A model generated the notes under the pieces. The model saw only the letters and a program-made list of their open reading frames with translations, searched no databases and was not told the origin of the DNA. DNA of 64,000 nucleotides from Pseudomonadota bacterium. GTDB taxonomy: Bacteria > Pseudomonadota > Gammaproteobacteria > Steroidobacterales > Steroidobacteraceae. The translations under genes were made by a program, and so were the position numbers. The stretch covers positions 141,589 to 205,588 of the forward strand of contig JAKAXA010000001.1 of the NCBI GenBank assembly GCA_021816775.1, in the 5' to 3' direction. Positions within the stretch are counted from its first letter, which is position 1; each line of letters begins with the position of its first letter. Shown piece after piece: positions 3,066-58,574 of this stretch.

Positions 3066-3068
3066 GTC

Positions 3069-4811: not shown

Positions 4812-4821
4812 GGTGAGCGCC

Positions 4822-5583: not shown

Positions 5584-5602
5584 GGAGAGGCTCCCGCAAG
5601 AT

Positions 5603-5636
5603 GCGCGGCGCCGGCCATCCTGGCGCGGCGCCGCGC
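5603..5636. terminator. hairpin between convergent genes
   Basis: A perfect 10-bp outer stem (5603-5612 with 5627-5636) encloses an inner GCCA/TGGC pairing. It lies between the convergent SDR and propeller-glycosidase genes. No T-run follows on either side, so terminator function is inferred from structure and place. Confidence 0.55.
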
Positions 5637-5652
5637 GGGGGGCTCGATCCGC

Positions 5653-6789: not shown

Positions 6790-6809
6790 GGCTGTCTCCT
6801 TGAATCTCC

Positions 6810-9557: not shown

Positions 9558-9773
9558 GATCAATCCCCCTCAGTCAGTTGATGCAGTGCAGTTGCGCGAA
9601 CGCCTGATGCCGCGATACTCGGCGGCTCCGCCCGCAGCGTCGTTTACAGGCGGACGATATCTTCGTATATAAATATAAATACCATTGGCGGACGGGGCGG
9701 CGCAAGAGGAATCTCATAATATGAAACGTGAATTCATATTTTTGGACGCGGGCTTCTGTTGGGCCGGCGCAAC
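9558..9773. promoter_or_regulatory. divergent promoter region of receptor and rhamnosidase genes
   Basis: This spacer of 216 bases separates the leftward receptor gene from the rightward rhamnosidase gene. It contains an unusually AT-rich tract at about 9656-9685 with overlapping TATA-like hexamers on both strands, in otherwise GC-rich surroundings. This is the most likely place for the divergent promoters. No convincing -35/-10 pair could be fixed on either strand. Confidence 0.55.
9718..9740. promoter_or_regulatory. 23-bp inverted repeat, candidate operator
   Basis: The half-sites AATATGAA (9718-9725) and TTCATATT (9733-9740) are exact reverse complements separated by seven bases. The repeat lies about 35 bases before the rhamnosidase start, in the shared divergent spacer. 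Its size and symmetry fit a dimeric repressor site. The regulator is unknown, and none is encoded in this part of the window. Confidence 0.5.
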
Positions 9774-12626
9774 ATGACCTCGAGACGCGCGCTGCTGCGG
9801 CTGCTCGCGCTGGGCGGGCCGGCGGTTTCCGGCGCCAGCCGGGCGCAGGCCGCCGCCGCGCCGCCGGGCCCCTGCGACGTGAGCCCCATGGACCTGCAGG
9901 TCGAGTGGCGCTCGGCCGCGCACGGCATCGATGCCCCCCGGCCGCGATTCGCCTGGACCCTTGCGCCCCGGGATCCGCAGCTGCGCGTGCTCGGGCAGGG
10001 TGCCTGGCAGGTCATCGTCGCGCGGTCGGCTGCGGCGATCCGCGCCGGCCGCGGGGACGTCTGGAACAGCGGCCGCCAGCCAGGCGGGACATTGCGTGTT
10101 GCCCCGGAACAGGATCTGCCGCTTCACTCGCAAAGCGACTACTGGTGGGCGGTGCGCGTGTGGGACCAGCGCGGCTGCCCCGGCGAGTTCAGCGCGCCCG
10201 CGCTCTTCACCACCGGCATCCTGCATGCCGACCCCTGGCGCGCACAATGGATTTCGGACGGGGCGGACTGGCCGCCGAGCCCCCTGCCTCCGCCGGCCAT
10301 CAACCCCAGCCCGCCGTCCGAGCCGCGCCCGATGCCCCTGTTCCGCCGCGACTTCACGCTCGAGAAGCCGCTCGCGCGCGCGCTGGTGTCCGCCTGCGGC
10401 CTTGGCCAGTACACCCTGCACGTCAATGGCCTGCCCGCCACCTCCAGCGTGCTGAATCCCGGCTGGACCGATTACCGCAGGACGGTCCTCTACGATACGT
10501 TTGACGTCACGGAGCTGCTGCGGCCGGGCGCGAACGTGCTCGCGGTCATGCTCGGCAACGGCTTCTTCAATGTCGAGAAATATCCCGGCCGCTACACCAA
10601 GTTCATCGGCAGCTTCGGGCGGCCGAAGCTCATCCTGCAGCTGCGGCTGGTGTTTGCCGACGGCAGCGAGCAGTGGGTGGTCAGCGACGAATCGTGGCGC
10701 ACCCATCCGGGACCGATCACACTGTCCTCGGTGTACGGGGGCGAGGATTACGACGCGCGGGCCGCCCTGCCGGGCTGGGACCGGCCGGAATTCGCCGGAC
10801 ATGACGCCTGGGCGCGCGCGACCCGGGTCACGAGTCCCGGCGGGCGATTGCGGGCCCAGAACGTCCCGCCGGTGCGGGGGGTGCGCACCCTGGAGCCGGT
10901 GACGGTGACTCAGCCCAAAGCGGGCGTGTTCGTCTACGACCTCGGTGAGAATTTCTCCGGCTGGCCCGTGATCGCCGTGCGCGGACCGGCAGGCCGCACG
11001 GTACGGCTGCTGCCGGGCGAGCTGCTCGACGCGCACGGTGGTGTCACGCAGCGCAGCGCAGCGGCCAGCCCCGGGGATGCGGTCTGGTTCACCTACATCC
11101 TCGCGGGCCGCGGTCTCGAGCACTGGCGGCCGCGTTTCAGCTACTACGGCTTCCGCTACGTGCAGGTCGAAGGCGCGGCGCCGAGCGGCACGGCACGCCC
11201 CGGGGAAGCGGAGTTGCTCCAGCTGAGCGGCGAGTTCCTGCACGCGGCCCTGCCGCGGATCGGCACGCTCGAGACCGGCCAGCCGCTGCTGCAACGCATC
11301 CACCAGCTGATCCTGCAGGCGCTGCACAGCAACAGCTTCAGCGTGCTCACCGACTGTCCGCAGCGCGAGAAGCTCGGCTGGCTGGAGCAGACCTACCTCA
11401 ATGCCGACACCGTCTTCTATAACGAGCAGGCGGTGACGGTATACGAGAAGATGCTCCGCGACATGATGGACAGCCAGCGCCCCTCCGGGCTGGTGCCGAG
11501 CATCGCGCCGGAATACGTGGCGTTCATCGATCCCGATGGACGCAACTCCGCGTTCCGCGACTCGCCGGAGTGGGGCTCGGCCATCGTGCTCTCGCCGTGG
11601 GCGGCGTACCGCTTCACCGGCGATCGGCGCCCGCTCGAGACCGGCTATCCCGCCATGTGCCGCTACGCGGCATATCTGCAGTCCCGCGCACGGGGCGATC
11701 TGCTCGACTATGGGCTCGGCGACTGGTTCGACTGGGGTCCCAGGCCGCCGGGCGAATCGCAGCTGACCAGCAGACGGCTCACCGCTTCGGCCACCTATTG
11801 CCGGCTGCTCGCCACGCTCTCGAGCATTGCCCGGGTTCTGGGGCACGCGAGCGACGCGCACCGCTTTGCGCGCCGCGCCGTGGCGGTGCGCCGGGCGCTG
11901 AATCGCGCGCTCTTCGATCCGACGACCCATGAATACGGTCGCGGCAGCCAGACGGCCAACGCCATGCCGCTCGCCATCGGCCTGGTGCCGGCGCGACACC
12001 GCGCGGCAGTGCTGGCAAATCTCGTCGCCAACATCCGCGCGCACGGCAATCACGTGACCGCGGGCGACATCGGCTACCTGTACGTGATCCTAGCGTTGAT
12101 GCGCGGCGGCCGCGGCGACGTGCTGCTCGACATCCTCACGCAGACCACAGCGCCGAGTTACGGTTATCAGCTCGCGCGCGGCGCGACCGCCCTGACCGAG
12201 ACCTGGAACGCCAACCCCGACAATTCGCAGAATCACTTCATGCTCGGCCAAGCGGAAGCGTGGCTCTACGGCGGGCTCGCCGGCCTGCGCATCGACATGC
12301 ACCGTGCGTCAAGCGAGCGCATCCGCATCGAGCCGCAGCCGGTCAAAGGGATCCGCAGCGCCTCGGTGCGCTATCGGACGGTGGACGGCGAAGTGGCGGC
12401 GGGCTGGGAGAAGAATGAGGAGGAGACCCGCTTGCGGCTGCACGTGGAGGTTCCCGCCGGAGCGCTGGCCACTGTCGTCCTGCCCTGCGCCGAAGCGACG
12501 CGCGTGCGCGAAGGCGGCCGGCCGCTCGGCCGGACTTTCGGCGTATTGCGCGTGCGCGCCGCCGGCGGTCGCACGCACGTCACGCTCGGCTCAGGCCGCT
12601 ACCTGTTCGATGCGCCGCTCGCCTGA
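9774..12626 (+). CDS. GH78 alpha-L-rhamnosidase, exported
   Basis: This protein of about 950 residues would hydrolyse alpha-L-rhamnosides by inversion. The leader TSRRALLRLLALGGPA has a twin-arginine look. The layout matches GH78: N-terminal beta domains, then a (alpha/alpha)6 barrel opening near residue 510 with DCPQREKLGWLEQ, where Asp527 and Glu532 have the five-residue spacing of the family's acid pair. The likely general base is Glu809 in LTETWNANPDNSQNHFMLG. A C-terminal beta domain follows. The ATG at 9774 is chosen over an in-frame TTG at 9759; neither has a strong ribosome-binding site. Its stop lies nine bases from the convergent mnmE stop. The product presumably frees L-rhamnose. 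Confidence 0.92.
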   Translation: MTSRRALLRLLALGGPAVSGASRAQAAAAPPGPCDVSPMDLQVEWRSAAHGIDAPRPRFAWTLAPRDPQLRVLGQGAWQVIVARSAAAIRAGRGDVWNSGRQPGGTLRVAPEQDLPLHSQSDYWWAVRVWDQRGCPGEFSAPALFTTGILHADPWRAQWISDGADWPPSPLPPPAINPSPPSEPRPMPLFRRDFTLEKPLARALVSACGLGQYTLHVNGLPATSSVLNPGWTDYRRTVLYDTFDVTELLRPGANVLAVMLGNGFFNVEKYPGRYTKFIGSFGRPKLILQLRLVFADGSEQWVVSDESWRTHPGPITLSSVYGGEDYDARAALPGWDRPEFAGHDAWARATRVTSPGGRLRAQNVPPVRGVRTLEPVTVTQPKAGVFVYDLGENFSGWPVIAVRGPAGRTVRLLPGELLDAHGGVTQRSAAASPGDAVWFTYILAGRGLEHWRPRFSYYGFRYVQVEGAAPSGTARPGEAELLQLSGEFLHAALPRIGTLETGQPLLQRIHQLILQALHSNSFSVLTDCPQREKLGWLEQTYLNADTVFYNEQAVTVYEKMLRDMMDSQRPSGLVPSIAPEYVAFIDPDGRNSAFRDSPEWGSAIVLSPWAAYRFTGDRRPLETGYPAMCRYAAYLQSRARGDLLDYGLGDWFDWGPRPPGESQLTSRRLTASATYCRLLATLSSIARVLGHASDAHRFARRAVAVRRALNRALFDPTTHEYGRGSQTANAMPLAIGLVPARHRAAVLANLVANIRAHGNHVTAGDIGYLYVILALMRGGRGDVLLDILTQTTAPSYGYQLARGATALTETWNANPDNSQNHFMLGQAEAWLYGGLAGLRIDMHRASSERIRIEPQPVKGIRSASVRYRTVDGEVAAGWEKNEEETRLRLHVEVPAGALATVVLPCAEATRVREGGRPLGRTFGVLRVRAAGGRTHVTLGSGRYLFDAPLA

Positions 12627-19603: not shown

Positions 19604-24798
<5,195 letters not shown>

Positions 24799-29174: not shown

Positions 29175-30752
29175 ATGACCCGAATTGAGCTGCAGGGCGG
29201 TGCACGCGAACCGCTGCCGGGAGCACGCCCGCTGCGTCCCGCCGCCGGGGACGAGCGGCTGGAGGTCAGCCTCATCCTGCGCCCAAATGACCAGGCGCGC
29301 TGGCGCGACCGGCTCGAACGACTCGGCCGCGGCGAGCGCCCGGCGCCCCTGACACGAGAGCAGTTTGCGCAAGCGCACGGCACGGCCGAGGCTGATCTGC
29401 GCGCCGTCGGCGCGTTCGCCGCCGCGCACGGCCTGGCCGTCGTCCAGCAGCATGCCGCGCGCCGCACCATCGTGCTTGCCGGCACCGTGACCCAAATGAA
29501 CGGCGCGTTCGGTGTCGAGCTGTGGCAATTCGAGCGTCCGCAAGGCACTTACCGCGGTTTGCGCACCGCGGTGCAGCTGCCCGAGGCACTGCGGGACATC
29601 GTGCTCGCCGTGCTGGGCCTGGACAACCGCCCGCAGGCCCGCCCGCACTTCCGTATGCGCACCGGCCCGAAGCCGCGCCGCTCGCGTGCCGCGACGCCGC
29701 TGGCCACTTCATTCACCGCCGTGCAGATCGCTTCCTTGTATCAATTCCCGGCCGGCTCGGGACAGGGTCAGTGCATCGCACTCATCGAGCTCGGCGGCGG
29801 CTACCGGCCGCAGGACCTGCAGGGCTACTTCGCGGGCCTCGGCCTGCCCGTGCCGGAGGTGATCACGGTGTCGGTCGATCATGCCGCCAATGCGCCGAGC
29901 GGCAATCCAAACAGCGCGGACGGCGAGGTGATGCTCGATATCGAGGTGGCCGGCGCCGTAGCGCCGGCGGCTAAGATCGCAGTGTATTTCGCACCCAACA
30001 CGGACGCAGGCTTCCTGGATGCGGTCACGACCGCTGTCCACGATACGGTCAATGCGCCCTCGGTGGTCTCCATCAGCTGGGGCGGAGCGGAGTCGACCTG
30101 GACGCAGCAGGCACTCGCCGCAATGGACCAGGCGCTGCAGGCGGCGGCGATGCTCGGCGTCACAGTGTGCGTGGCGTCAGGCGACAGCGGTGCGACTGAC
30201 GGTGTCGCCGACGGCGCCAATCACGTCGATTTCCCCGCATCGAGTCCGCACGCCCTGGGATGTGGCGGCACGCGCTTGAAAGCGACGAGCGCTGCCATAC
30301 TGGGCGAAGTCGTGTGGAACGACGGCAATCCCGCGTCGGGCGCATCGGGCGGCGGCGTCAGTACGTTCTTTGCACTGCCCTCATGGCAGCAAGGACTCGA
30401 CACGACCAACCTTCAGGGGCAAACGCAACCGTTGTCCGCGCGAGGCGTGCCGGACGTCGCCGCGGATGCCGACCCTCAGACGGGCTACGAGGTTGTCGTC
30501 GATGGAGTTCAGGCGGTTTTCGGCGGAACCAGTGCCGTGGCGCCGTTGTGGGCGGGGCTCATCGCGCGTATCAATGCGTTGACGGGCCGCAAGGCAGGGT
30601 ATATCCAGCCGGCCCTCTATACGCACGAGGCCGCCTGCCGCGACATCACGAAAGGCAACAACGGCGGCTACGAGGCTTCGGCCGGCTGGGACGCGTGCAC
30701 CGGCCTCGGCAGCCCCGACGGCCAGCAGATCGCCGCGATCCAGAGCCTTTAG
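29175..30752 (+). CDS. sedolisin/kumamolisin-type serine-carboxyl peptidase (S53)
   Basis: This 525-residue protein has the two-part S53 layout. The pro-domain (residues about 25-150, with LTREQFAQAHG and YRGLRTAVQLPEALRDIV) precedes the catalytic domain. The catalytic set is visible: Glu251 and Asp255 in GEVMLDIEVAGA (the E-x3-D spacing of the family), oxyanion Asp337 in ASGDSGATDG, and nucleophile Ser453 in GGTSAVAPLWAGL. A calcium-site-like segment DITKGNNGGYEASAGWDACTGLGSPDG closes the protein. Sedolisins are usually secreted acid proteases, but no N-terminal signal peptide is visible here. GGAG upstream supports the ATG at 29175. Confidence 0.93.
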   Translation: MTRIELQGGAREPLPGARPLRPAAGDERLEVSLILRPNDQARWRDRLERLGRGERPAPLTREQFAQAHGTAEADLRAVGAFAAAHGLAVVQQHAARRTIVLAGTVTQMNGAFGVELWQFERPQGTYRGLRTAVQLPEALRDIVLAVLGLDNRPQARPHFRMRTGPKPRRSRAATPLATSFTAVQIASLYQFPAGSGQGQCIALIELGGGYRPQDLQGYFAGLGLPVPEVITVSVDHAANAPSGNPNSADGEVMLDIEVAGAVAPAAKIAVYFAPNTDAGFLDAVTTAVHDTVNAPSVVSISWGGAESTWTQQALAAMDQALQAAAMLGVTVCVASGDSGATDGVADGANHVDFPASSPHALGCGGTRLKATSAAILGEVVWNDGNPASGASGGGVSTFFALPSWQQGLDTTNLQGQTQPLSARGVPDVAADADPQTGYEVVVDGVQAVFGGTSAVAPLWAGLIARINALTGRKAGYIQPALYTHEAACRDITKGNNGGYEASAGWDACTGLGSPDGQQIAAIQSL

Positions 30753-47506: not shown

Positions 47507-49099
47507 ATGGCTACAGCCTACGATTACATCATCGTCGGCGCCGGGTCCGCCGGCTGCGTGCTCGCGCATCGGCTGAGCGCCGATCCCACGATCCGGGTGC
47601 TGCTGCTCGAGGCGGGCGGCCGGGACGACTCGTTCCTGATTCACATGCCGGCGGGTATCGCCCGGCTCATCACCCCCGAGGTGAACTGGCTGTACGAGAC
47701 CGAGCCCCAGGCCGAGCTGCACGGCCGGCGCCTGTTCTGGCCGCGCGGCAAGACGCTCGGCGGCTCGAGCTCGATCAACGCCATGGTCTACATCCGCGGC
47801 CAGCCGCAGGATTACGATCACTGGCGCGCCCTCGGCAACCCCGGCTGGGGTTACGAGGACGTGCTGCCCTATTTTCGCCGCGCCGAAAACAACGAGTCGA
47901 TTTTCAACGACTGGCACGGCCGCGAGGGTCCGCTCAACGTCTGCGAGCGGCGTTACACCAATCCGCTCAGCCACAGGTTTGTCGAGGCAGCCGCCTCGAG
48001 CGGCCTCGCCCGCAACGCCGATTTCAACGGCCGCGCGCAGGAGGGCGCCGGGCTCTACCAGGTGACGCAGAAGGCCGGTCGCCGCTGCAGCGCGGCGAGC
48101 GCCTACCTCCACCCCGTCGCCCATCGACCCAACCTGACCGTGCTCACCGGCGCGCTGGCGCGGCGCATCGTGCTGCAGGGCCGCCGGGCCGTGGGGGTCG
48201 AGTACATCTGCGCCGCGGCTGCCCTCGAGGCCCGCGCCGAGCGCGAAGTGCTGCTCGCCGGCGGTGCGATCAACACGCCGCAGCTGCTGCTGCTCTCGGG
48301 CATCGGGCCGGCCGAGGAGCTGCGCTCCCTGGGCCTTGCAGTGCAGCACGATCTGCGCGGCGTGGGGCGCAATCTGCAGGATCACCTGGATGTGCACGTC
48401 ATCCACGCATGCACGCAGCCCGTCACCCTCGATCCACTGGCGCGCGGCTTCGGAGCGGCACGCACCGCGCTGCGCTATGCGCTGTTCAAGAACGGGCCGG
48501 GCGTCAGCAACGTCGCCGAGGCCGGCGCCTTCCTGCGCTGCACCGCGCAGAGCCCAAGCCCCGACGTGCAGCTGCATTTCATTCCGGCGTATGTGGTCGA
48601 TCATGGCCGGCGCCGCATGAGCGGGTACGGCATGACGCTGCACGTGTGCTTCCTGCGGCCCGCCAGCCGCGGCACGATCCGCCTCGCCTCGGCCGACCCG
48701 GCCGAGGCGCCGCGCATCGATCCGGCGTATCTGAACGAGCCGTCCGATCTGGCGCCGCTCATCGCCGGCATCCGGCGAGCGCGCGAGATCTACGCGCAGG
48801 CGCCTCTGCGCGGCTATCTCGGTGACGAGGTGTTTCCCGGCGCCGCTCGCCGCAGCGACGCGCAACTCGCGGAATTCGTCCGCGGCGCCGCCGAGACGGA
48901 ATATCACCCGGTCGGCACCTGCAGGATGGGCACGGACGGCGAGGCCGTGGTGGATGCGGCGCTGAGCGTGCACGGCCTCGAAGGCCTGCGCGTGGTCGAT
49001 GCGTCGATCATGCCGACGCTGGTGAGCGGCAATACCAACGCGCCCACCATCATGATCGCGGAGAAGGCCGCCGATCTGATCCTCGGCCTCGCCTCGTGA
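47507..49099 (+). CDS. GMC-family FAD oxidoreductase (choline dehydrogenase-like)
   Basis: This 530-residue flavoenzyme has the dinucleotide motif YIIVGAGSAGCVLAHRLS, the GMC signature 1 region WPRGKTLGGSSSINAMVYIRG and signature 2 GGAINTPQLLLLSGIGPAEEL. The C-terminal active site has His467 in EYHPVGTCRMG and Asn511 in SGNTNAPTIMIAEKAAD. Members oxidise choline, alcohols or glucose-like sugars. No betaine-aldehyde dehydrogenase is adjacent, so choline is not a safe substrate guess. GGGGAGG upstream supports the start. Confidence 0.92.
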   Translation: MATAYDYIIVGAGSAGCVLAHRLSADPTIRVLLLEAGGRDDSFLIHMPAGIARLITPEVNWLYETEPQAELHGRRLFWPRGKTLGGSSSINAMVYIRGQPQDYDHWRALGNPGWGYEDVLPYFRRAENNESIFNDWHGREGPLNVCERRYTNPLSHRFVEAAASSGLARNADFNGRAQEGAGLYQVTQKAGRRCSAASAYLHPVAHRPNLTVLTGALARRIVLQGRRAVGVEYICAAAALEARAEREVLLAGGAINTPQLLLLSGIGPAEELRSLGLAVQHDLRGVGRNLQDHLDVHVIHACTQPVTLDPLARGFGAARTALRYALFKNGPGVSNVAEAGAFLRCTAQSPSPDVQLHFIPAYVVDHGRRRMSGYGMTLHVCFLRPASRGTIRLASADPAEAPRIDPAYLNEPSDLAPLIAGIRRAREIYAQAPLRGYLGDEVFPGAARRSDAQLAEFVRGAAETEYHPVGTCRMGTDGEAVVDAALSVHGLEGLRVVDASIMPTLVSGNTNAPTIMIAEKAADLILGLAS

Positions 49100-49196
49100 G
49101 GCTGTGCCGTGCCGTTCGTGACGGCACACGCAGTGTCCCGGAGTGAGCCCTGCGGCCGCGGCGCGCTGCCCGGCGGCGCGCGCGAGTGACGGCCAT

Positions 49197-50963
49197 TCAA
49201 CGCCGGTCGCGGGTCCCGCGGAAGATCCGCGCGGCGTGGCCGTGGCGCCGATGAGCGGACGTGGCATGCGCCGCCGCTGCGCCAAGCCAGCCGCCGGTGA
49301 AGTCCGCGCGCCGCAGTCCGACGCGGATGTAGAGATTGTGGCGCATGATTCGCCAGATCAACCGGCTGCGCTCATTCTCGATCATGGCGATGATCGGTCC
49401 CTGATCGATGCCGAGGAAGGCGCTGTCGACCCAGCCACGGCCCGGCACGACGTGACCGTCGCGAGCCAGTCGGGCAACGGTGAAACTTGGGTTGAATGAA
49501 TCGAGAAAACCGAAGCGTGTGTAGATGATGTCGCCGTATCGGCGCAGAAGCGCCTGCGTCGCGGACGTCACGTACCGTGGGGCGAACATGATGGAGCCGA
49601 GCACCGCGGTCGGCGCAAGCGTGCCGTCGTCAACGTTCTGTTTGCTGATGCCGCGTGCGGCGTAGGCATAGAACTGTCGCATCCGTCCGTGATAGGGGGC
49701 GCGGACGTATCCCGGTCCGTCGCAGGCCGTGAGACCCCAGATGTTCGGGCCGTAGCCGGCCCAGCCGTGCGGGTTGATGATGGCGTACCTGCGCTGCACG
49801 AGGGTCGCGATGACGCCGTTCAGGAAATACGTTTCCCCTTGGGCGCGCATGAATGGGTCGGCGATGCCGCGCAGATCGACCCACACGGCCGTGTACTGAA
49901 ATCCAAACTGCGGGCCGAAGGACAGCAGGGTCAGGCCGCCGAGGCGCCGCAGATCGTGATGATTGGTCGCGGTCCAGGCGCCCCAGGCGTTGGCGCGCAA
50001 GGGGTGCGTCGGCGAGCCCAGGCCGAGGATGTAGAGGATCGAGGCCTCGTTGTAGCCGTGCCAGCGCAGCTTCGAGAAGCCGCGGCGGGGCCACCAGGCC
50101 ATGCTCACCAGCGGGTTCGAGCCCGGCGCCGCCCAGCTCCAATCGACGCGCCGGTACAAGCGCGTCGCGAGCCGCCGCACCTGCCGTTCCGTCGCGGTGT
50201 CGTGATCGAAGTACTGCCCGGCAGTGAGGACGCCCGCCATGAGCAGGGCGGTATCGATGGTCGAGAGCTCGCTGTGGCCGTACCGCAGGCCCGTGCGCAT
50301 GTTGAGAAAGTGGTAGAAGAATCCATGATAGCCGGCATAGCCCCTGCGCCCCGGCCCCTGCGGCCGGCTGAGCAGGAACGCGAGGACTTTGCGCACGCGT
50401 GCCGCGGCAGCGTGCCGGGTGACGTATCCGCGGTAGGCGCCGATCACATCTGCCGTCAGTGCGAAGCCAACGGCCGAAATGCTCGCCGGACCATGGGCGG
50501 GCGGCCAGCGATCCGGCGTCAGGCCGCTCACAGGGTCGGCCGTGACCCAGAAGTAATCGAACGTCCGCCGCTCGATGTCGCGAAACATGCGCCGAGAGTG
50601 GCGAGCGAGGCTGAGCACGCAGCTGCGCGAGAGCGGCGCGAGGGGGTGGCGCGGCGGCGGTTGCCGCGACAACGCCGGCGGACAGGCGGGGCCGGCCAGT
50701 GAGCCGCTCGCCTCGGCGCTGCCCGACTGCAGCGCCGGGGGCGCCGGGCGCGTCGCGCGGATCGCCGCCCGCGTCGCCTGGATGCTGTGCCGCGCCGCCC
50801 GGCTGGAGAGCTGCCCGGCTTGGGCGGCCAGCTGCGCCACCTCGGCGCTCAGCCGCCGCTCGGCGGCCTGCTCCGCCGCGGAGATCCGCAGCCACGCGAT
50901 CACGGCAATCGCCGTGAGCACGTCGAGCACAACGGCCAGGAGCAGCGATTTTCTGACACTCAT
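49197..50963 (-). CDS. membrane-anchored glycoamylase-like protein (GH144-type)
   Basis: The 588 residues start with an uncleaved-type anchor (residues 6-24, SLLLAVVLDVLTAIAVIAW) and a short Ala/Arg-rich helical stretch. A glycoamylase-like domain follows from about residue 120, with FRDIERRTFDYFWVTADPVSGLTPDR, ISAVGFALTADVIGA, GFFYHFLNMRTG, ELSTIDTALLMAGVL, NEASILYILGLGSPTHPL and NPHGWAGYGPNIWGLTACDGP. This is the pattern of the glycoamylase (PF10091) family that includes GH144 endo-beta-1,2-glucanases. The likely role is periplasmic glucan cleavage, perhaps of osmoregulated periplasmic glucans; the substrate is inferred. GC-rich antisense frames were discounted. Confidence 0.8.
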   Translation of the reverse strand: MSVRKSLLLAVVLDVLTAIAVIAWLRISAAEQAAERRLSAEVAQLAAQAGQLSSRAARHSIQATRAAIRATRPAPPALQSGSAEASGSLAGPACPPALSRQPPPRHPLAPLSRSCVLSLARHSRRMFRDIERRTFDYFWVTADPVSGLTPDRWPPAHGPASISAVGFALTADVIGAYRGYVTRHAAAARVRKVLAFLLSRPQGPGRRGYAGYHGFFYHFLNMRTGLRYGHSELSTIDTALLMAGVLTAGQYFDHDTATERQVRRLATRLYRRVDWSWAAPGSNPLVSMAWWPRRGFSKLRWHGYNEASILYILGLGSPTHPLRANAWGAWTATNHHDLRRLGGLTLLSFGPQFGFQYTAVWVDLRGIADPFMRAQGETYFLNGVIATLVQRRYAIINPHGWAGYGPNIWGLTACDGPGYVRAPYHGRMRQFYAYAARGISKQNVDDGTLAPTAVLGSIMFAPRYVTSATQALLRRYGDIIYTRFGFLDSFNPSFTVARLARDGHVVPGRGWVDSAFLGIDQGPIIAMIENERSRLIWRIMRHNLYIRVGLRRADFTGGWLGAAAAHATSAHRRHGHAARIFRGTRDRR

Positions 50964-51928
50964 CGTGTCACCCGGCCGGTTTTCGTGATGCGGTCGGTTT
51001 GCCGGGGAGCGCGCGCACCCCCGAGCCTCAAGCCATGCCGGCGACGATGATGAGCGTGCGCCAACAGATCGCGGGACTTGCCGGTGCTTGTGGAGGCAGC
51101 CGTCACTTCGCAGCGGCTAGACGCCGAATCCAGAGATCAACTTCGCGATGAGCGAGACGCCGGCGGTGCCGCCGGTCCTGTCGCGTGGACTGCGCTTGCG
51201 CGAAATGTTGAGCACGTCCAATTCCTTGAAGCTGACCCGATCGGCGGGCGTAACCGAGCGAATGGTGTATGCCAGAGCACTGGCGAAGCGGGGTCCATTC
51301 GAACGGCAATTGCCGTCCGCGTCAAGCGGCAGCGAGGTCGCAAGGGTGAGCTTGGCGGCCGCGGCCCGCTCCCCGGGGAGTCGCGCCGGGGGCGCTCCAG
51401 GCGTGGCGAGGCCGCTACGCGCGCCGGCCGGCGACCGTGATCCGGTTTGCGCGGGCGCACGAGCGAGCGGCGTGCGATTCCCCTGGAGGCGGCGCCCGGC
51501 CGCGCCGCGCGATGAAGGCGTCGTGCGCCGGCACGAGGGCGGGGCAGCTGCGGGTCACCTCCTGCACGTGACCGATGATCTGCCTGAGCCCGCGATCCCT
51601 CAGGCGATCGATCACGGACGGAGCGGCGCGCCCCGCGAGTGGGCCGGCCACGAAGCCTGCCACCTGCCCGCGACCATGATCGCTCGTCCCGCTCATCGCT
51701 TCGCTCTGACCGCAGACGACGCGCCGGTGCGGTCCCCGTCGAAGTCCGCAGCCCAGGGCGTCGCGTCTCCCCGATGCGACGCGTCGCTGCGCGCCGATCC
51801 CGTATGGGTCGTGTGCGCGCGCATTGACCGTGCGCGCAGCCTGCAACCGGCGTGTTGGGAACATAATGCAGTGACCGGCGCGTACCGCCCTGCGGTATCT
51901 TGTCGGTAACCCGGAAGGGAGCGCAGAG
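50964..51928. other. 965-base stretch with no convincing gene
   Basis: Frames are open on both strands, but none combines a start, a ribosome-binding site and a known motif. The most protein-like piece is on the - strand: an open frame from about 51552 to a TAG at 51117-51119, whose end reads RVSFKELDVLNISRKRSP and closes LIAKLISGFGV, but which has no start codon. A second - strand frame (about 51415-51700, MSGTSDHGRGQVAGFVAGPL onward) might be another remnant. The stretch may hold a decayed gene. Immediately before the cupin gene, CGGAAGGGAG serves as its ribosome-binding site. Confidence 0.4.
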
Positions 51929-52399
51929 ATGAAAAAGATCGAACTCGGCAACACACCGATGGTGACGGGCAGCCGTTACCCCTCGCCCTATGACGAGCCC
52001 TGCCTGCATCGCAAGCGCTGGCGCCTCGGGGAGGCGGCACGCCTCGCGCAGTTCGGCGTCAATCTGCTGCGGCTGGCGCCGGGCGCCTGGTCGAGCCAGC
52101 GGCATTGGCACGCCGCTGAGGATGAATTCGTCTACGTGCTCGAGGGCGAAGTCGTGCTCGTCAGCGAGGCGGGCGAGGAGCTGCTGAAGGCGGGCGATTG
52201 TGCGGGTTTCCCCTCCGGGGAGCCCGACGGTCATCATCTGCAGAATCGCAGCGGCGCCGAGGCGGTGATTCTCGAGATCGGCGCGCGCCACCCCGAGCGC
52301 GATGCGGTCGACTACCCGGACATCGACCTGGCCATCCGCGCCGGCCGCAGGCAATTCGTACACAAGGACGGCACACCCTATCCTCCGCGCCCAAAGTGA
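51929..52399 (+). CDS. cupin-domain protein
   Basis: This 156-residue protein is a single cupin. The first cupin motif is seen in PGAWSSQRHWHAAEDEFVYVLEGEVVLV (metal ligands His, His, Glu) and the second in AGDCAGFPSGEPDGHHLQNRS with a third His. Such small cupins act as sugar-binding, dioxygenase-like or regulatory proteins; the exact role is not readable. AAGGGAG lies upstream of the ATG. A short DUF4440-like gene follows after 21 bases, possibly in the same transcript. Confidence 0.88.
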   Translation: MKKIELGNTPMVTGSRYPSPYDEPCLHRKRWRLGEAARLAQFGVNLLRLAPGAWSSQRHWHAAEDEFVYVLEGEVVLVSEAGEELLKAGDCAGFPSGEPDGHHLQNRSGAEAVILEIGARHPERDAVDYPDIDLAIRAGRRQFVHKDGTPYPPRPK

Positions 52400-52420
52400 C
52401 GGCGGGGGTGTGCCGTCACC

Positions 52421-52723
52421 ATGAACACGCACGCGCTGCCCCGGCTGCTGAGCGATCATTACCTCGAAATCACCTACCAGGGCAGGATACGCGACAAGGC
52501 GGATGTCCTGCGGGCTCCCGCCACGCGCGCGCTGCGGCATACGCAACAGCTCGCGGACGAGCAGGTGCGGCTCCGTGGCCCTACCGGCATCGTCACGGGC
52601 CGCGGCGTTCTATTGGACATCGAGCAGCGGCGCATCGCCGCGTGGCGATTCACCGATGTGTTCGCGCGGCGCGACGGCCTCTGGAAGGCGGTCTCGTCGC
52701 AGGAGACCGTGGAGCGTCGCTAA
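52421..52723 (+). CDS. DUF4440/SnoaL-like protein, possibly N-terminally shortened
   Basis: The 100 residues match the NTF2-like DUF4440 fold: LPRLLSDHYLEITYQGRIRDKADVL, then GPTGIVTGRGVLLD and AAWRFTDVFARRDGLWKAVSSQETV. Family members are normally about 120-140 residues with an extra N-terminal helix before LLSDHY; that helix is missing here, so the gene may be truncated or have a different start. No catalytic role is known for most members. It lies next to a decayed xylanase gene. Confidence 0.65.
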   Translation: MNTHALPRLLSDHYLEITYQGRIRDKADVLRAPATRALRHTQQLADEQVRLRGPTGIVTGRGVLLDIEQRRIAAWRFTDVFARRDGLWKAVSSQETVERR

Positions 52724-52831
52724 CACCCGGCGGGGCCCCGGCGTGTTGGATCGGGAGCGCCGCGGGGCGGCGGCTCTTGCCCGCGGCGCCGGCTCACGCG
52801 GCTTTGACAAAACCCGGCGCCCGCCGTCGCA

Positions 52832-52845
52832 TGATAGCGTTACCA
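52832..52845. promoter_or_regulatory. LacI-type operator resembling the XylR box
   Basis: TGATAGCGTTACCA (reverse complement TGGTAACGCTATCA) matches 12 of 14 positions of the xylan-responsive operator TGGTAGCGCTAACA recalled for Xanthomonas and Caulobacter. A TTGACA lies at 52804-52809, so the operator overlaps where a promoter -10 would be. It sits 27 bases before the first ATG of the decayed xylanase. No LacI-type repressor is encoded in this window. Confidence 0.55.
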
Positions 52846-52871
52846 GCCTCCCGAGGGCTGGGCCCCGGGAG

Positions 52872-54765
52872 ATGCCGATCGCAATCAATCCGGGGCGTTG
52901 GAGCGCATATGTCTTGTCGTGCGTGTCGCTCATCGCACCGCTCTGGGCCGTTCCATCTGAGATCGATATTAGTCTTCGCCGTCGGGCTGTTCGGACCAGC
53001 CAAACGCAGTGTTAAGGCTGGCCGCTACGCTCGTCACCAAGCGCGTGGCCGCGTGGGACGGCCCGCAGATCGGCGTCAGCGACAGGATGTACGTCGCTCG
53101 TCCTACGCCGTCAGCGTCTGGGTCATGCTGGCCCCGGATGCGGCCCAGGCGAACACGCTGCGGGTGAGTCTGCAGGCGACCCTCACCGACCCGACCACCG
53201 GGCAGGCCACGACCTCGTATGACACGGTGGTGCCGGATAGGCCCGTTGCGCCGGGCCGGTGGGTCAGGCTCTCGACTCCCAACTACTCCATGGCGGCAGC
53301 CTACGATCCGGGCAAGGCGTACCTGTACGTCGAGTCGGCGAGCGGCACGCAGGACTTCTACATCACGGACTCCAAGCTGACGAACCTGCCGCCGCTCACG
53401 ATCCGGCAGAACATTCCTTCCATTCACCAGACCCTGGCGGACTACTTCCCGGTCGGCGCCGACATCGATCAGGCCGATCTCGCCGGCCCCATGCGCAGCG
53501 GCTCGTGAAGCCCTTCGACAGCATCGTCTCCGGCAACGACATGAAATGGCAGGAGACCGAGCCGACGGCAGGACCGTTCCCCTACGCCGCCGCGGCCGCG
53601 CAAGTGCAGCTCGCCGAGCAGCGCCACATGCTGATCCCCGGCCACGATCTCGTCGGGCCCACCGGTGCGCAGACTCCCGCGTGGGTGCTCCTGGAGAAGG
53701 ATGGCGCCACGCCGCTCTCGGCGTCGAAAGCGGCGGACGTCATGGTTCTCACCGGGCACATCCGCAGTCACATCGAGAACCGCGTGCAGCACTTCGGCAG
53801 CGCGGTCTGCGTCTGGGACGTGGTCAACGAGCCGATCGACCCCAGCGAGCCGGACTGCCTGGTGCACGGCCCCTTCTGCAAGGTACTGGGCGCGCGCTAC
53901 ATCAGCCTCGCGCTGTGGGCTGCGCGCGAGGCGTGCCGCTCGATGGCAGCGGGCACGAGATGCACACCCACATCGACAATCCCTCGCCGTGGGCGGAGTA
54001 CGGGTCGATCGAGACGCTGCACCGGCTGTTCCCGGGCCTGCGCCCGCAGGTGACCAAGCTCGACGACAGCGTCTATCCGGCGAGCGACAACACGTCGATC
54101 GACGGCGCCAACGGCGGCACGGTGCCGCCCGCGATCCTCGACGAGCGGGGCTGGCTCTACAAGAACTACTTCGACGTGTTCCGGGCTCTCCGGGGCAGCC
54201 TGGAGGCCGTCACCTTCTGGGGCATGGCGGATGACAACACCTGGATCGACAGCTTCCCCATCAACCGGCTGGACATGCCGCTGCCGTTCGATACGCGGCT
54301 GCAGGCCCGGCCGGCCGACTGGGGCATCGTCGATCCGACGCATCGGGCGGGCTACGGCCTCGAGGTAGCGCTCGCCTCGCGCGCCGGGCCGTCGCAGTCG
54401 TAGACCTGGACGATCACCGCGACCAACCCCAGCGAGTCAACGGCCTACGACACGCAGATCGACCGCCTGTTCCTGATCCCGATGCGCGGCGAGGAGGACG
54501 AGATGCGTGAGGAGCACGGACAAGCTGAACCGGGACACCGCTGGACAGGCTGCCGCGCGACGCTCGACATGCCGTCCAACCTGCCACTGTCGCTCGGTAA
54601 CATCGCGCCCGGCGGATCGGGCAGCGCGTCCTGCATCGTCGAATTCCATCACTGCGGGACCCACGTCCTGTTCATGCTGCAGGCGCCATGGAGCTCCGCG
54701 GTCTATGAGACGGGCCTGCTGGTGGCGAAGGATCTGCAGCCTGAGGCAGCCGGCGCGCCTGCGCC
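52872..54765 (+). pseudogene. decayed CBM-GH10 endo-1,4-beta-xylanase
   Basis: All parts of a secreted xylanase can be followed across frames. After a weak leader comes a CBM4/9-CBM22-like domain (VTKRVAAWDGPQIGVSD, then in another frame YAVSVWVMLAPDA ... YLYVESASGTQDFYITD). The GH10 domain begins (SIHQTLADYFPVGADI), stops at 53506-53508, and continues in a new frame with GNDMKWQETEPT and the acid/base Glu (53829-53831) in VCVWDVVNEPID. About 60 residues are then missing and the frame changes near 53935, resuming GVPLDGSGHEMHTHID. The nucleophile motif TELD reads TKLD (AAG at 54056). A TAG at 54401-54403 interrupts before a C-terminal beta domain (SLGNIAPGGSGSA). Confidence 0.9.
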
Positions 54766-54774
54766 GGCGAGGCG

Positions 54775-57273
54775 TCAATCGGATCCGTCGCGCAGGGAGG
54801 CCAGTGGCGGTTGTTTGAGCACCGAGCGGGTGGCGAGCCACCCGCTCGCCGCCACGAGCAGCGTGCCGCCGACGATGCCGATGAGGCAGGCAACGGGGTT
54901 GAACCGGTACGGCAGGTTCAGGACCTGGCGCGTCAGGTACCAGGCGGCGACGCTCGCGCCGGCCGCCGCGATGAGGCCTGAGAGCGCCCCGAGGGCAGCG
55001 AATTCCGCGAGCACTCCCTGTGTCACGGTCGAGCGGCTCGCGCCCAGGGTGCGCAGCATGGCGCTCTCGTAGCGGCGCTGCTCGCGGCTGGAGCGCGCGG
55101 CGGCCAGCAGCACCGTCAGGCCCGCGAGCAGCGTGAAGACGAACACGCTCTGTACCGCCAGGATCGCCTTGTCGAGCATGGCGCGCACGTCCTGCAGCAG
55201 GTCATCGATGTCGAAGATCGACACGCTGGGAAACCGGCTCGCCACCTGCGTGAGGGAGCGCGCCTGGGACGGCGTCAGATACGCGCTGGTGAGGTACGTC
55301 CCGGCCTCCTTCTCCAGCAGCCCCGGCGCCAACACGATGAAGAAATTCGGCTTGAAGCTGTCCCAACTCACCTTGCGTACGCTGGCGATACGTACCGAGA
55401 AGGTGTCGCCCGCGACGTCGAACGTCAGCTGCTCGCCGAGGCGCAGGCCCAGCCAGCGCATGAACTCCGTCGACACCGATACGAGCGGCTTGCCGTAGTC
55501 GGCCGCGCCCCACCAGCGGCCGGCGACGATGCGGTTCCCACTGCCGAGCGCGGCCGACCAGGTCAGGTTCTGCTCGCGCGTGGCGAAGCGCTCCCCGCGC
55601 GGGTCGGCGAAGCGGATCGACTCCACCGGCCGGCCGCCGATGCGGGTCAGACGGCCGCGCAGCAGCGGCAGCATGCGCGCCGGATGCGCCCCCTGCTCGC
55701 GCAGGAACGCATCGAAGGCCGCGCGGCTCGGCCGCGGAATATTGATGAAGAAGTAATTCGGCAGATCCGCCGGCAGGGTGCGGCGCCAGCCGCCGGTGAG
55801 GTCGGTGCGGATGATGCCGAGCAGCAGCAGCGCCATGATGCCCGTACCGAAGGCGACGATCTGCACCACGCTGTCCATGCGGCGGCGGCCGAGATTGGCG
55901 ATGCCGTAGCGCCAGGCGACCCCCACCCGGCCGCGCAGCCGGTTCGTGATCATCACCAGCAGCAGCCCGGCGCCGGCCAGCAGCGCAACGAACGCCGCCA
56001 GGCCGAGCGACAGTGTCACGAACGGCTTGCCGGCGCCCATCACCCAGTAGATGAGGAGCACGATGAGGGCGAGGGCGGGTCCGAAGGCGAGCAGCGCCGC
56101 CGGCCGCGGCGGCCCGACGTCGCGCCGCAGCACGCGCAGCGCGGGCGCGCCAGTCAGCTGCAGCAGCGGCGGCAGCGCAAAGCCGGCCAGCAGCGCCAGC
56201 GCCGTCAGCAGGCCGATGCCGGCGGGCGCCAGGCTCGGTGCGGGCAGCTCGCGCGCCGCCAGCAGGCCGCGCAGTGCGTGGACCAGCCACAATTGGGACA
56301 GGTCGCCGAGCGCGCAGCCGAGCGCTGCCGCCACCAGCGCGACCGCCGCGAGCTGAATCAATGTCACGCTCAAGATGGTGTGTCGCGTCGCGCCCAGGGT
56401 CTTCAGCAGCGCGACGGTGTCGAGGTGGCGCGCCACGTAGCGCCGCGCCGCCATCGCGACCGCCGCAGCGCACAGCAGCACCGCGGCGAGGCTCGCCAGG
56501 TTGAGGAATCGGTCCGACCGATCGACCGCGCCGTGGATCTGCCGGCTGGCATCCGCGACCGTGCGCAGCCGCTCCCCGCTCGTGAGATGAGTCTGCAGCC
56601 ACGCGCGGAATGCGCGGACGCGTGAAGGAGGGCCGGCGAACAGCGCGCTGTAGCTGACGCGGCTGCCCGGCTGGATGAGCTGCGTGCGCGGCACATCCGC
56701 GGCGTTCATCAGCAGGCTCGGAACCAGTCCCGTGAAGGTGCTGCCCTGATCGGGCCGTGAAATCAGCACCCGCCCGACGGCGAGCGTGGCGGAGCCGATG
56801 GACAGATGCGAGCCGACGCGGGCGCCGAGCGCCGCCAGCAGCCGCGAATCGGGCCACACCACCCCAGGTGGCGGGATGCCGGCGGCGGGGGTCCCGGGGG
56901 CGAACGGCGCCCCCGCGACGAGCACCCGGCCCCGTAGCGGATAGCCGTTCGTGACCGCATACAGGTCGGTCAGCTGACTGCGCTCGCCCTGAAACACAAC
57001 GCTCAGCATGCCGACGGCGCGCGCGCTGCGCAGGCCTTCCCGCGCAGCTGCGGCGAAATCCGCCGCCGCAATGGGCTTGGGCGACTCCAGACGCAGGTCG
57101 GCCGCCAGCACCTGCGTTGCCTGCAGCGCCACTGCCGCGCGGATGCGGCTCACGAGGAAGCCGACGCCGCTCAGCGCTCCAACGGCGACGATCAGCGCGA
57201 GCAGCAGGACGCCGAGCTCTCCGGCGCGCCACTCGCGGCTCAGCATGCGCAGGGCGAAGCGGACCGTGCGCAC
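54775..57273 (-). CDS. YbbP-like ABC transporter permease (FtsX family)
   Basis: This 832-residue inner-membrane protein has the FtsX/MacB-like build in double form: a first membrane helix (GVLLLALIVAVGALSGVGFLV), a large periplasmic domain, a helix bundle near residues 270-430 (DTVALLKTLGATRHTILSVTLIQLAAVALV), a second periplasmic domain, and a final bundle with SAMLRTLGASRSTVTQGVLAEFAALGALSG. It pairs with the ATPase gene ybbA, whose stop lies one base before this GTG start. With tesA divergent, the set equals the ybbP-ybbA/tesA cluster of E. coli, thought to export or extract an unknown lipid-like substrate. Confidence 0.9.
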   Translation of the reverse strand: MRTVRFALRMLSREWRAGELGVLLLALIVAVGALSGVGFLVSRIRAAVALQATQVLAADLRLESPKPIAAADFAAAAREGLRSARAVGMLSVVFQGERSQLTDLYAVTNGYPLRGRVLVAGAPFAPGTPAAGIPPPGVVWPDSRLLAALGARVGSHLSIGSATLAVGRVLISRPDQGSTFTGLVPSLLMNAADVPRTQLIQPGSRVSYSALFAGPPSRVRAFRAWLQTHLTSGERLRTVADASRQIHGAVDRSDRFLNLASLAAVLLCAAAVAMAARRYVARHLDTVALLKTLGATRHTILSVTLIQLAAVALVAAALGCALGDLSQLWLVHALRGLLAARELPAPSLAPAGIGLLTALALLAGFALPPLLQLTGAPALRVLRRDVGPPRPAALLAFGPALALIVLLIYWVMGAGKPFVTLSLGLAAFVALLAGAGLLLVMITNRLRGRVGVAWRYGIANLGRRRMDSVVQIVAFGTGIMALLLLGIIRTDLTGGWRRTLPADLPNYFFINIPRPSRAAFDAFLREQGAHPARMLPLLRGRLTRIGGRPVESIRFADPRGERFATREQNLTWSAALGSGNRIVAGRWWGAADYGKPLVSVSTEFMRWLGLRLGEQLTFDVAGDTFSVRIASVRKVSWDSFKPNFFIVLAPGLLEKEAGTYLTSAYLTPSQARSLTQVASRFPSVSIFDIDDLLQDVRAMLDKAILAVQSVFVFTLLAGLTVLLAAARSSREQRRYESAMLRTLGASRSTVTQGVLAEFAALGALSGLIAAAGASVAAWYLTRQVLNLPYRFNPVACLIGIVGGTLLVAASGWLATRSVLKQPPLASLRDGSD

Positions 57274-57274
57274 G

Positions 57275-57943
57275 TCAGAGCACCCGGCCGGCTTCCATGC
57301 GCACGATGCGACCACAACGCTCCGCGAGCTCGCGGTCGTGGGTCACGAGAATCAGCGTCGTGCCGGCCTCGGCGTTCAGCTCGAACAGCCGCGCGATGAT
57401 GTTCGCGCCGGTCACGCTGTCGAGATTTCCGGTCGGCTCATCGGCGAACAGAACGGCCGGCCGCCCTACGAACGCGCGCGCGAGGGCGACGCGCTGCTGT
57501 TCGCCGCCGGAGAGCTGCCGCGGATAGTGTCCGGCACGCCCCGCCAGGCCCACGTGCTCGAGCGCCGCGCGCGCCGCCGCGCGCGCGCCGCTGTGCCGCG
57601 CCAGCTCGAGAGGCAACGACACGTTCTCGAGTGCCGTCAGCGCGGGAATGAGGTGGAAGGCCTGGAACACGAAACCGACATGCTGGGCGCGGACACGCGC
57701 CCGCCCGTCCTCATCGAGCGCCGTCAGGTCGTGCCCGGCGAGCACGACCCGGCCGCTGGTCGGCAGATCGAGGCCCGCCAGCAGAGCGAGCAACGTCGAC
57801 TTGCCTGCGCCCGAGGGGCCGGTCACCGCGAGCGTCTCGCCGCGGGCGATCTCGAGCGACGCCTCCTGCACTATAGTGAGGGGACCGGCCGGACTGTCGA
57901 CCGTCTTGGTGAGGTGCTCGGCTTTGAGAACGCACTCCTGCAT
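57275..57943 (-). CDS. ybbA: YbbA-like ABC transporter ATP-binding protein
   Basis: This 222-residue ATPase belongs to the LolD/MacB-type group. It has Walker A GPSGAGKST, the Q loop in VGFVFQAFHLIPALTALENV, signature LSGGEQQR, Walker B AVLFADEPTGNLD and the switch His in LVTHDRELAERC. The ATG at 57943 is chosen; another in-frame ATG at 57967 shares the same CATG with the divergent tesA start. It is coupled to the permease gene downstream. Confidence 0.92.
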   Translation of the reverse strand: MQECVLKAEHLTKTVDSPAGPLTIVQEASLEIARGETLAVTGPSGAGKSTLLALLAGLDLPTSGRVVLAGHDLTALDEDGRARVRAQHVGFVFQAFHLIPALTALENVSLPLELARHSGARAAARAALEHVGLAGRAGHYPRQLSGGEQQRVALARAFVGRPAVLFADEPTGNLDSVTGANIIARLFELNAEAGTTLILVTHDRELAERCGRIVRMEAGRVL

Positions 57944-57965
57944 CGCGCCGTCTTGGCTCGCTGTC

Positions 57966-58574
57966 ATGGTGGGTATCGGGCTGCTGCTCTTCACGGTGCC
58001 ATCCGCCTGGGCTTCGAACCGGACCATCCTCGTTTTCGGCGACAGCCTGAGCGCCGCGCACGGATTGCGCCCGGAGCAGGGATGGGTGGCGCTGCTGGCG
58101 AAGCGCCTGCGCAAGCAAGGGTACCGATACCGTATCGTCAACGCCAGCGTCAGCGGCGAGACCACCACCGGCGGGCTGCAGCGCCTGCCGCACGAGCTGC
58201 GCGCCTGTCATCCGGGCATCGTCATCCTCGAGCTCGGCGCGAACGACGCCCTGCGCGGGCTGCCGCTGACGCTCGCGGCGCGCAACCTCGCCGGGATGGT
58301 GCGCCTCGCGCGCGCCGCGGGCGCGCGGGTCCTGCTGGTCGGCCTGCTCCTGCCTCCGAATTACGGTCCGCGTTATACACAGCAGTTCGCGGCGATGTAT
58401 CCGCACCTGGCGCGGGAGTTTCGTCTGCCGCTCGTGCCCTTCCTGCTCGCGCACGTCGCGCTCGATTCGCACCTCATGCAGGCCGACGGCCTGCACCCCA
58501 ACGCGCGCGGCGAGCCGCTGCTGCTCAACAACGTATGGCCGTATCTGCAGCCGCTGCTCAGCCGTGCACCCTGA
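57966..58574 (+). CDS. tesA: TesA-type esterase/lysophospholipase (SGNH/GDSL)
   Basis: This 202-residue periplasmic hydrolase has a short signal peptide (MVGIGLLLFTVPSAWA) and all four SGNH blocks: Ser27 in LVFGDSLSAAHG, the Gly of SVSGETTTGG, GANDALRG, and Asp174/His177 in ADGLHPNA. TesA-like enzymes cleave acyl-CoA thioesters, lysophospholipids and esters. It is divergent from ybbA with almost no spacer, so its promoter must lie within the ybbA coding region. Confidence 0.93.
   Translation: MVGIGLLLFTVPSAWASNRTILVFGDSLSAAHGLRPEQGWVALLAKRLRKQGYRYRIVNASVSGETTTGGLQRLPHELRACHPGIVILELGANDALRGLPLTLAARNLAGMVRLARAAGARVLLVGLLLPPNYGPRYTQQFAAMYPHLAREFRLPLVPFLLAHVALDSHLMQADGLHPNARGEPLLLNNVWPYLQPLLSRAP

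Follow-up and report, generated by a model that had tools for sequence, protein, structure and literature searches.

Gene Content of the Locus

The window, by which we mean the whole 64,000-nt stretch of DNA analyzed here, lies on contig C24 of a draft genome of 3.94 Mb (G000; 90 contigs, 97% complete), and was compared with related genomes at one genome per species. At 52900-54741 it holds the remains of a GH10 xylanase gene, in which fragments of one protein are spread over three frames (Table 1). When trained on the window, a simple gene caller left this stretch empty and called genes on either side of it. The GH10 profile PF00331 matched the relic in two pieces and two frames with 92.9 and 52.8 bits, both above the cut-off of 22.1, which places it in the GH10 catalytic-domain family by sequence. 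The preliminary description of this DNA had named a broken CBM-GH10 gene at this place, and the identification was correct.

The comparison with a sister species that it had proposed was provided by genome G069 (JAJYUL010000001.1, isolate DX4.bin29), in which an intact, syntenic open gene of 861 aa adjoins the same permease and confirms the lesions of the window copy. Its product comprises two CBM_4_9 stretches, a GH10 domain and a C-terminal part, and its N-terminus reads like a Sec signal peptide. The catalytic domain scored best, within the PDB set, against the thermostable celloxylanase 2dep. Among the related genomes, those with the enzyme are MAGs recorded as Proteobacteria, Pseudomonadota or Gammaproteobacteria.

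Table 1. Features of the relic and its surroundings (window positions unless a contig is given).
Feature	Position	Strand	Evidence or remark
Cluster of GH42 beta-galactosidase, GH43/GH32-like protein, TonB receptor and GH78 rhamnosidase	948-12626
Putative glucoamylase, intact, about 2 kb from the relic	49197-50963		PF10091
Cupin gene	51929..52399	+	PF07883
DUF4440 ORF between cupin gene and relic	52421..52723	+	PF14534
Signal-peptide coding remnant of the GH10 gene	52900..52990	+	Local alignment to G069
N-terminal deletion junction	52991..53032	+	About 40-50 non-aligning nt replace about 0.65 kb
Second CBM_4_9 and start of catalytic domain	53033..53486	+	-1 frame change after 53095
GH10 domain, first half	53487..53929	+	New frame after -1 at 53486; PF00331 28-162
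103-nt deletion junction	53929..53930	+	34 codons + 1 nt; 8-nt similarity near both edges
GH10 second half and C-terminal part	53930..54741	+	Third frame; PF00331 193-310
GC-rich inverted repeat between convergent genes	54750..54769	.	Read directly; retained at the empty place in both G067 and G008
FtsX-type permease, open, convergent neighbor, locus marker	54775..57315	-	PF02687
Secreted-looking protein of about 650 aa between ManD and UxaC	C65:36239-38194 (L107:16239-18194)

The relic had been described as part of a glycan locus that otherwise stays intact. This holds for the neighboring putative glucoamylase, but the locus itself was misplaced: among the scanned window proteins, the GH42/GH43-32/TonB/GH78 cluster is 40-50 kb from the relic, and the functional partners of the xylanase are found on another contig, C65. 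No match was obtained in a plasmid similarity search. Neither an Rfam match in 48000-58000 nor a tRNA in the whole window was found, and there is therefore no sign that an insertion took place at an RNA gene. Elsewhere in the window, gyrB (20662-24798, 1378 aa) contains an intein with splicing and LAGLIDADG domains (PF14890, PF14528), and a pro-kumamolisin/subtilase-type protease gene is located at 29175-30752 (PF09286, PF00082).

Disabling Lesions in the GH10 Gene

Lesions were defined by alignment to the intact orthologue at L046:5544-8129 of G069. Three single-base deletions were found, after 53095, after 53486 and at 54741, the last of which pushes the gene's own stop out of frame; a further frame change follows from the 103-nt deletion after 53929. 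The codon at 54401-54403 is TAG in the relic and CAG in G069. With three frames and this stop, the relic has no single open frame that could encode a functional GH10 enzyme. Of the two glutamates that form the catalytic pair in this family, the acid/base residue is retained at 53829-53831, and the nucleophile has become lysine (AAG at 54056-54058), with glutamate kept in all eight other copies compared, including a relic in G029. The frame changes, the stop and the altered nucleophile had all been noticed in the preliminary description. Two lesions go beyond it. About 0.65 kb of coding DNA before 53033, comprising the first CBM and the start of the second, has been lost, and the tryptophan of the LVW motif, present in all seven intact copies, is replaced by glycine (GGG at 53655-53657). 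Upstream of the N-terminal loss, 52900-52979 can still be aligned to L046:5562-5641 of G069 with a local score of 47, the maximum in 500 block-shuffles being 37; downstream of it, the CBM and catalytic-domain start share 83% amino acid identity with G069 over 130 residues.

The internal loss had been put at about 60 residues, which is too large, as only 103 nt are missing. Its suggested origin from a short repeat has modest support from the edges as read: an 8-nt match lies near both of them, a situation shared by 27 of the 2440 deletions of 103 nt that the intact gene allows, but the junction falls 1-2 nt past the repeat. With an intact orthologue at the same place in G069 and several disabling lesions, the relic is a pseudogene.

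The draft state of the genome and the single-base size of some of the deletions would be compatible with an error of sequencing or assembly, and the single-base items are accordingly less firm than the others. As a full account of the lesions, error is refuted by two large deletions, a stop codon, two active-site changes and a raised level of nonsynonymous change, by neighbors with open frames of 588 and 846 codons, and by flanks that both match sister genomes; we regard the chance that it explains the relic as negligible.

State of the Locus in Related Genomes

The permease that marks the locus was matched (E <= 0.001) in 52 of 58 genomes of the genus, with some of these matches only partial or weak. 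In G067 and G008, whose permeases are 95-96% identical to that of the window, the stretch from just past the cupin gene to the permease-side inverted repeat is absent, the DUF4440 ORF is missing with it, and the cupin gene directly adjoins the permease. The latter arrangement is also present in G036 and G013, where the same place is empty, and for this reason loss rather than gain is not proved by the tree alone. The ancestral presence of the GH10 gene is argued instead from synteny and from the similar divergence of this gene and its flanking genes between G000 and G069: dS is 0.39 for GH10 and 0.51-0.53 for the flanking genes, values of the same order, which speaks for vertical inheritance and against recent transfer. 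A recent transfer from a G069-like donor was rejected on the same comparison. The relic was most likely inherited in place from the common ancestor with G069, as far as divergence and gene order can tell.

Two further relics were recognized. In G029, the sister of G069 on the permease tree, the gene carries frame changes of -1, -2, -2, +2 (giving TAA) and another -1 together with a 169-nt loss at the C-terminal end, and its N-terminal half is unrecognizable; over the overlapping part it has no lesion in common with the window relic. In G079 (L112:1-500, contig C62), a catalytic-domain stub is followed directly by the C-terminal end, nearly the whole catalytic domain having been deleted; this relic occupies the locus at which the gene is found in G034, G065 and G080. 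These alignments show that decay of the same enzyme has also taken place, independently, in further species of the genus.

The enzyme profile was matched in 14 of the 58 genomes, the window's own included: seven full-length CBM_4_9 GH10 copies (G069, G034, G020, G065, G080, G068 and G071), one copy at a contig edge (G012), three relics, and three GH10 genes of another type (G010, G031 and G070). In a permease tree built from 49 rows (48 genomes), which does not include G068, G071 and G012, relics and intact copies are scattered, and well-supported branches force at least three and at least four changes, respectively. The copy in G020 was probably transferred, since it sits elsewhere and lacks the flanks common to G034, G065 and G080, and its dN is 0.10 to G034 and 0.19 to G069, whereas the permease tree groups G020 with the G069 clade. 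A PF00331 match of 22.9 bits in G032 was set aside, as its translation reads as another type of glycoside hydrolase and has no match to the enzyme profile.

Selection on the Relic and Age of Its Decay

Changes were polarized with G034, G020 and G065 as outgroups and, in a second set free of G020, with G068, G071 and G080; the counts exclude gapped codons, sites at which the outgroups disagree and codons outside 6330-7905 of G069. On the relic branch, nonsynonymous changes number 59 and synonymous ones 42, whereas the branch of the intact G069 gene has 19 and 39, respectively (Fisher p = 0.003); the computed neutral ratio is about 2.4-3.2. In the same two lineages the permease has no G000 excess (57:119 in G000 vs. 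85:114 in G069), and the relic differs from the G000 permease with p = 3e-5. For the loosely constrained glucoamylase, the ratios are equal in the G000 and G069 lineages (54:57 and 54:63), and on the G000 branch itself no significant difference between this gene and the relic was obtained (p = 0.17). The case for relaxed selection therefore rests on the intact GH10 gene and the permease. The corresponding test for the G029 relic was not significant by itself (p = 0.086). Taken with the alignment, these counts show a gene that died by several deletions, a stop codon and active-site changes and then drifted.

The neutral share of the relic branch was 0.40 (5-95%: 0.22-0.64) with the first set of outgroups and 0.50 (5-95%: 0.30-0.78) with the second, so leaving out G020 and its probably transferred copy gives a similar answer. 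The relaxed phase would thus cover about 0.4-0.5 of the lineage since G069, within a range of about 0.2-0.8, which makes the loss appear neither brand new nor ancient. Of the recent loss of xylanase proposed earlier, the loss of function stands, but "recent" is only partly right for a phase of this length. Flanking-gene dS is 0.13-0.18 between G000 and G067, compared with 0.51-0.53 between G000 and G069, and the death of the gene may have occurred either before or after the split from G067, as the dS data fit both.

Since one genome per species was compared, the broken copy might have been fixed by chance in the sampled strain of a species that otherwise has a working gene. This we consider very unlikely, because so many lesions, together with the drift signal, indicate a long inactive phase, and other species have relics of the gene or lack it.

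At codon positions 1+2, the relic has moved toward G+C, with AT>GC changes at 41 of 388 sites and GC>AT changes at 7 of 400 (53033-54480), and the G029 relic (L010:9745-10700) has 14 of 232 and 4 of 256, respectively; no comparable drift at these positions was found in intact GH10, permease or glucoamylase genes. Nearby intergenic DNA has about 70% G+C, with AT>GC (67) and GC>AT (59) changes in balance. The drift is as expected if the relic DNA relaxes to the G+C content of the nearby intergenic DNA, and its use as evidence on the upkeep of GC-richness was dropped for that reason. The relics could serve as a yardstick for drift and for neutral substitution of non-coding DNA in a GC-rich genome.

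Glucuronoxylan Locus on Contig C65

The search of the genome for other xylan genes, which the preliminary description had recommended, revealed a glucuronoxylan locus on C65 and no GH10 gene besides the relic. XylA (TIGR02630, 603.7 bits; cut-off 533.25) and XylB (TIGR01312, 548.2 bits; cut-off 380.25) were identified there, and a TonB receptor (TIGR01782), ManD (NF043051) and a GH35-type protein were above their respective cut-offs. Pfam matches added two tryptophan-halogenase-like genes, SapC, a cupin, a PfkB sugar kinase, an AXE1 esterase, a glucuronoyl-esterase-type protein (presumably CE15), a GH3 enzyme, an MFS transporter, UxaC and GH67. The kinase, the GH3 gene and a fructuronate-reductase-like gene reached no specific NCBIfam cut-off.

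Eighteen genes of the locus were compared; as they were chosen as open frames, conserved length and omega are the evidence for their maintenance. In comparisons covering most of a gene in one frame, omega against G067 and G069 was 0.08-0.33, and for GH67, GH3, UxaC, ManD and MFS, all of which are open, it was 0.08-0.27. The AXE1 and XylB genes of G069 have stops only within N-terminal ORF extensions ahead of the domains, and its match to the CE15-type gene is free of stops; for the GH35-type gene, the G069 stretches compared contain no full orthologue. A short MFS fragment in G008 gave an omega of 0.71 over about 91 residues. Only a few genes near GH67 were comparable in G008 and G029, which have short contigs, and the G067 contig ends inside GH3. 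These values show a glucuronoxylan-fragment locus that, in the close relatives with comparable orthologues, is under purifying selection. By sequence, the oligomer uptake and digestion steps are intact (TonB receptor, GH67, GH3, XylA, XylB, UxaC and ManD).

The GH67 gene was found in all five close species (G000, G067, G008, G029 and G069), with or without GH10. In the genus, 30 of 58 genomes have GH67, of which 10 have a GH10 gene of either type that is intact or at a contig edge, three a relic and 17 none, and GH10 occurs in one of the 28 genomes without GH67; this association (Fisher p = 0.006) does not take phylogeny into account, and genes may be hidden where genomes are incomplete.

The suggested shift in diet, in which xylan use is given up and the xylanase is the first gene of the pathway to decay, finds no support in a locus whose xylo-oligosaccharide and glucuronate genes are open and conserved, nor in the presence of GH67 in five of five close species. 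That the xylanase is broken or absent in four of these five (all except G069), and that a neighbor gene in the G008 xylan locus (the counterpart of C65:36239-38194) also looks broken, would fit such a shift, which we nevertheless consider improbable.

Other Candidate Endo-Xylanases

The search for endo-xylanases covered GH10, GH11, GH30 (PF02055), GH8 and GH5. In the window's own genome, no match was obtained for GH11, GH30 (PF02055) or GH8, and the single GH5 match was below the cut-off. An endo-xylanase could sit in a gap of the draft genome or belong to a family outside this search, such as GH30_2, GH98 or GH141. A GH5 match of 57.9 bits in G029 was above the cut-off, with none above it in G000, G067, G008 or G069, and G029 may therefore not be devoid of every polymer-cutting enzyme. 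The six-frame GH43 search of the own genome gave one match below the cut-off; the GH43/GH32-type protein at window 5653-6789 scored 35.8 bits on its own (cut-off 32.2) and 23.4 bits in the six-frame search.

The secreted-looking protein encoded between ManD and UxaC (Table 1) matches nothing in Pfam or NCBIfam and nothing credibly in the PDB. Its gene is open in G067 (94%), G069 (87%) and, up to the contig end, G029 (86%), and is apparently broken in G008 by two stops and a gap. It could be a candidate glycan-active enzyme, conceivably an endo-acting one, given its place in the locus. It is not simply a substitute for GH10, because G069 has both.

This protein speaks in favor of the main rival explanation, that another, unrecognized endo-xylanase made GH10 redundant. 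The families outside the search and the GH5 enzyme of G029 lend it further weight, but the GH11, GH30 (PF02055), GH8 and GH5 results for G000 argue against it, as do the presence of the C65 protein in a genome that keeps GH10 and its apparently broken state in G008. We judge replacement unlikely, though somewhat less so than a shift in diet.

Loss of a Secreted Enzyme and Proposed Scavenging

The relic derives from a secreted two-CBM GH10 endo-xylanase that is dead. Considering all the above results, we propose, with a probability of roughly 0.6, that its death was a scavenger-type loss in which the private pathway was kept. A costly, shared secreted enzyme would have been lost, xylan chains would no longer be cut by the cell itself, and oligosaccharides freed by neighboring degraders would be imported and digested. 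We infer this feeding on neighbors' products from gene content: a cell with import and digestion and without chain cutting would have to obtain its fragments from others.

More tentatively, and a little short of an even chance, the secreted GH10 enzyme can be seen as a public good, repeatedly gained and lost in the genus, alongside a private glucuronoxylan pathway that persists. The window would then be part-way from degrader to scavenger, and the intact gene of G069, the differently broken copies of G000 and G029, and the clean loss in G067 and G008 would represent graded stages.

A similar division is known for alginate in Vibrionaceae, in which pioneers, harvesters and scavengers are distinguished and scavengers act as cheaters on the oligomers of pioneers (PMC5036157). 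In both cases close relatives differ in the secreted polymer cutter and the oligomer enzymes are kept. The alginate types were demonstrated by assays of growth and enzyme activity (PMC5036157), whereas the present case concerns xylan and sequence alone. Furthermore, that study stresses acquisition, and the words "pseudogene" and "gene loss" do not occur in its main text (PMC5036157), whereas the three broken copies described here represent the side of loss. In Paenibacillus sp. JDR-2, xylanases including the GH10 enzyme Xyn10A1 make oligosaccharides, among them aldouronates, and the proposed model is import followed by intracellular degradation by a cluster that includes GH67 (PMC4765114). That strain differs in having functional GH10 enzymes, of which one is intracellular, as well as ABC transporters (PMC4765114), whereas the only GH10 gene found here is dead and a TonB-receptor locus without GH10 is left.

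The relic is of the same sequence family as the CBM_4_9 GH10 enzymes of the seven genomes with full-length copies and their Acidobacteriota homologues; unlike these, it lacks a continuous frame, 34 catalytic-domain codons, the nucleophile and much of the N-terminus. By kind it is an ordinary pseudogene, which becomes more interesting through its genus-wide setting, and the loss of GH10 follows a familiar evolutionary pattern whose intermediates are unusually clear here. To our knowledge, the loss of shared secreted enzymes has often been proposed, mostly from presence/absence tables. No report of recurrent GH10 xylanase decay with a kept GH67 pathway was found in the titles and abstract beginnings among the matches listed. 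Within one small clade the enzyme is intact in some genomes, broken in others and missing from the rest, and the pathway downstream of it is open; the order, age and number of losses are therefore measurable, and the scavenger idea can be checked with a small number of isolates or co-cultures.

Relatives of the two-CBM GH10 protein were also recorded farther afield (L079-L102), in many Acidobacteriota records at 43-61% identity and in Paenibacillus and Pelagicoccus at 39-42% identity, and there are hints in these sequences that the gene may have been exchanged between phyla.
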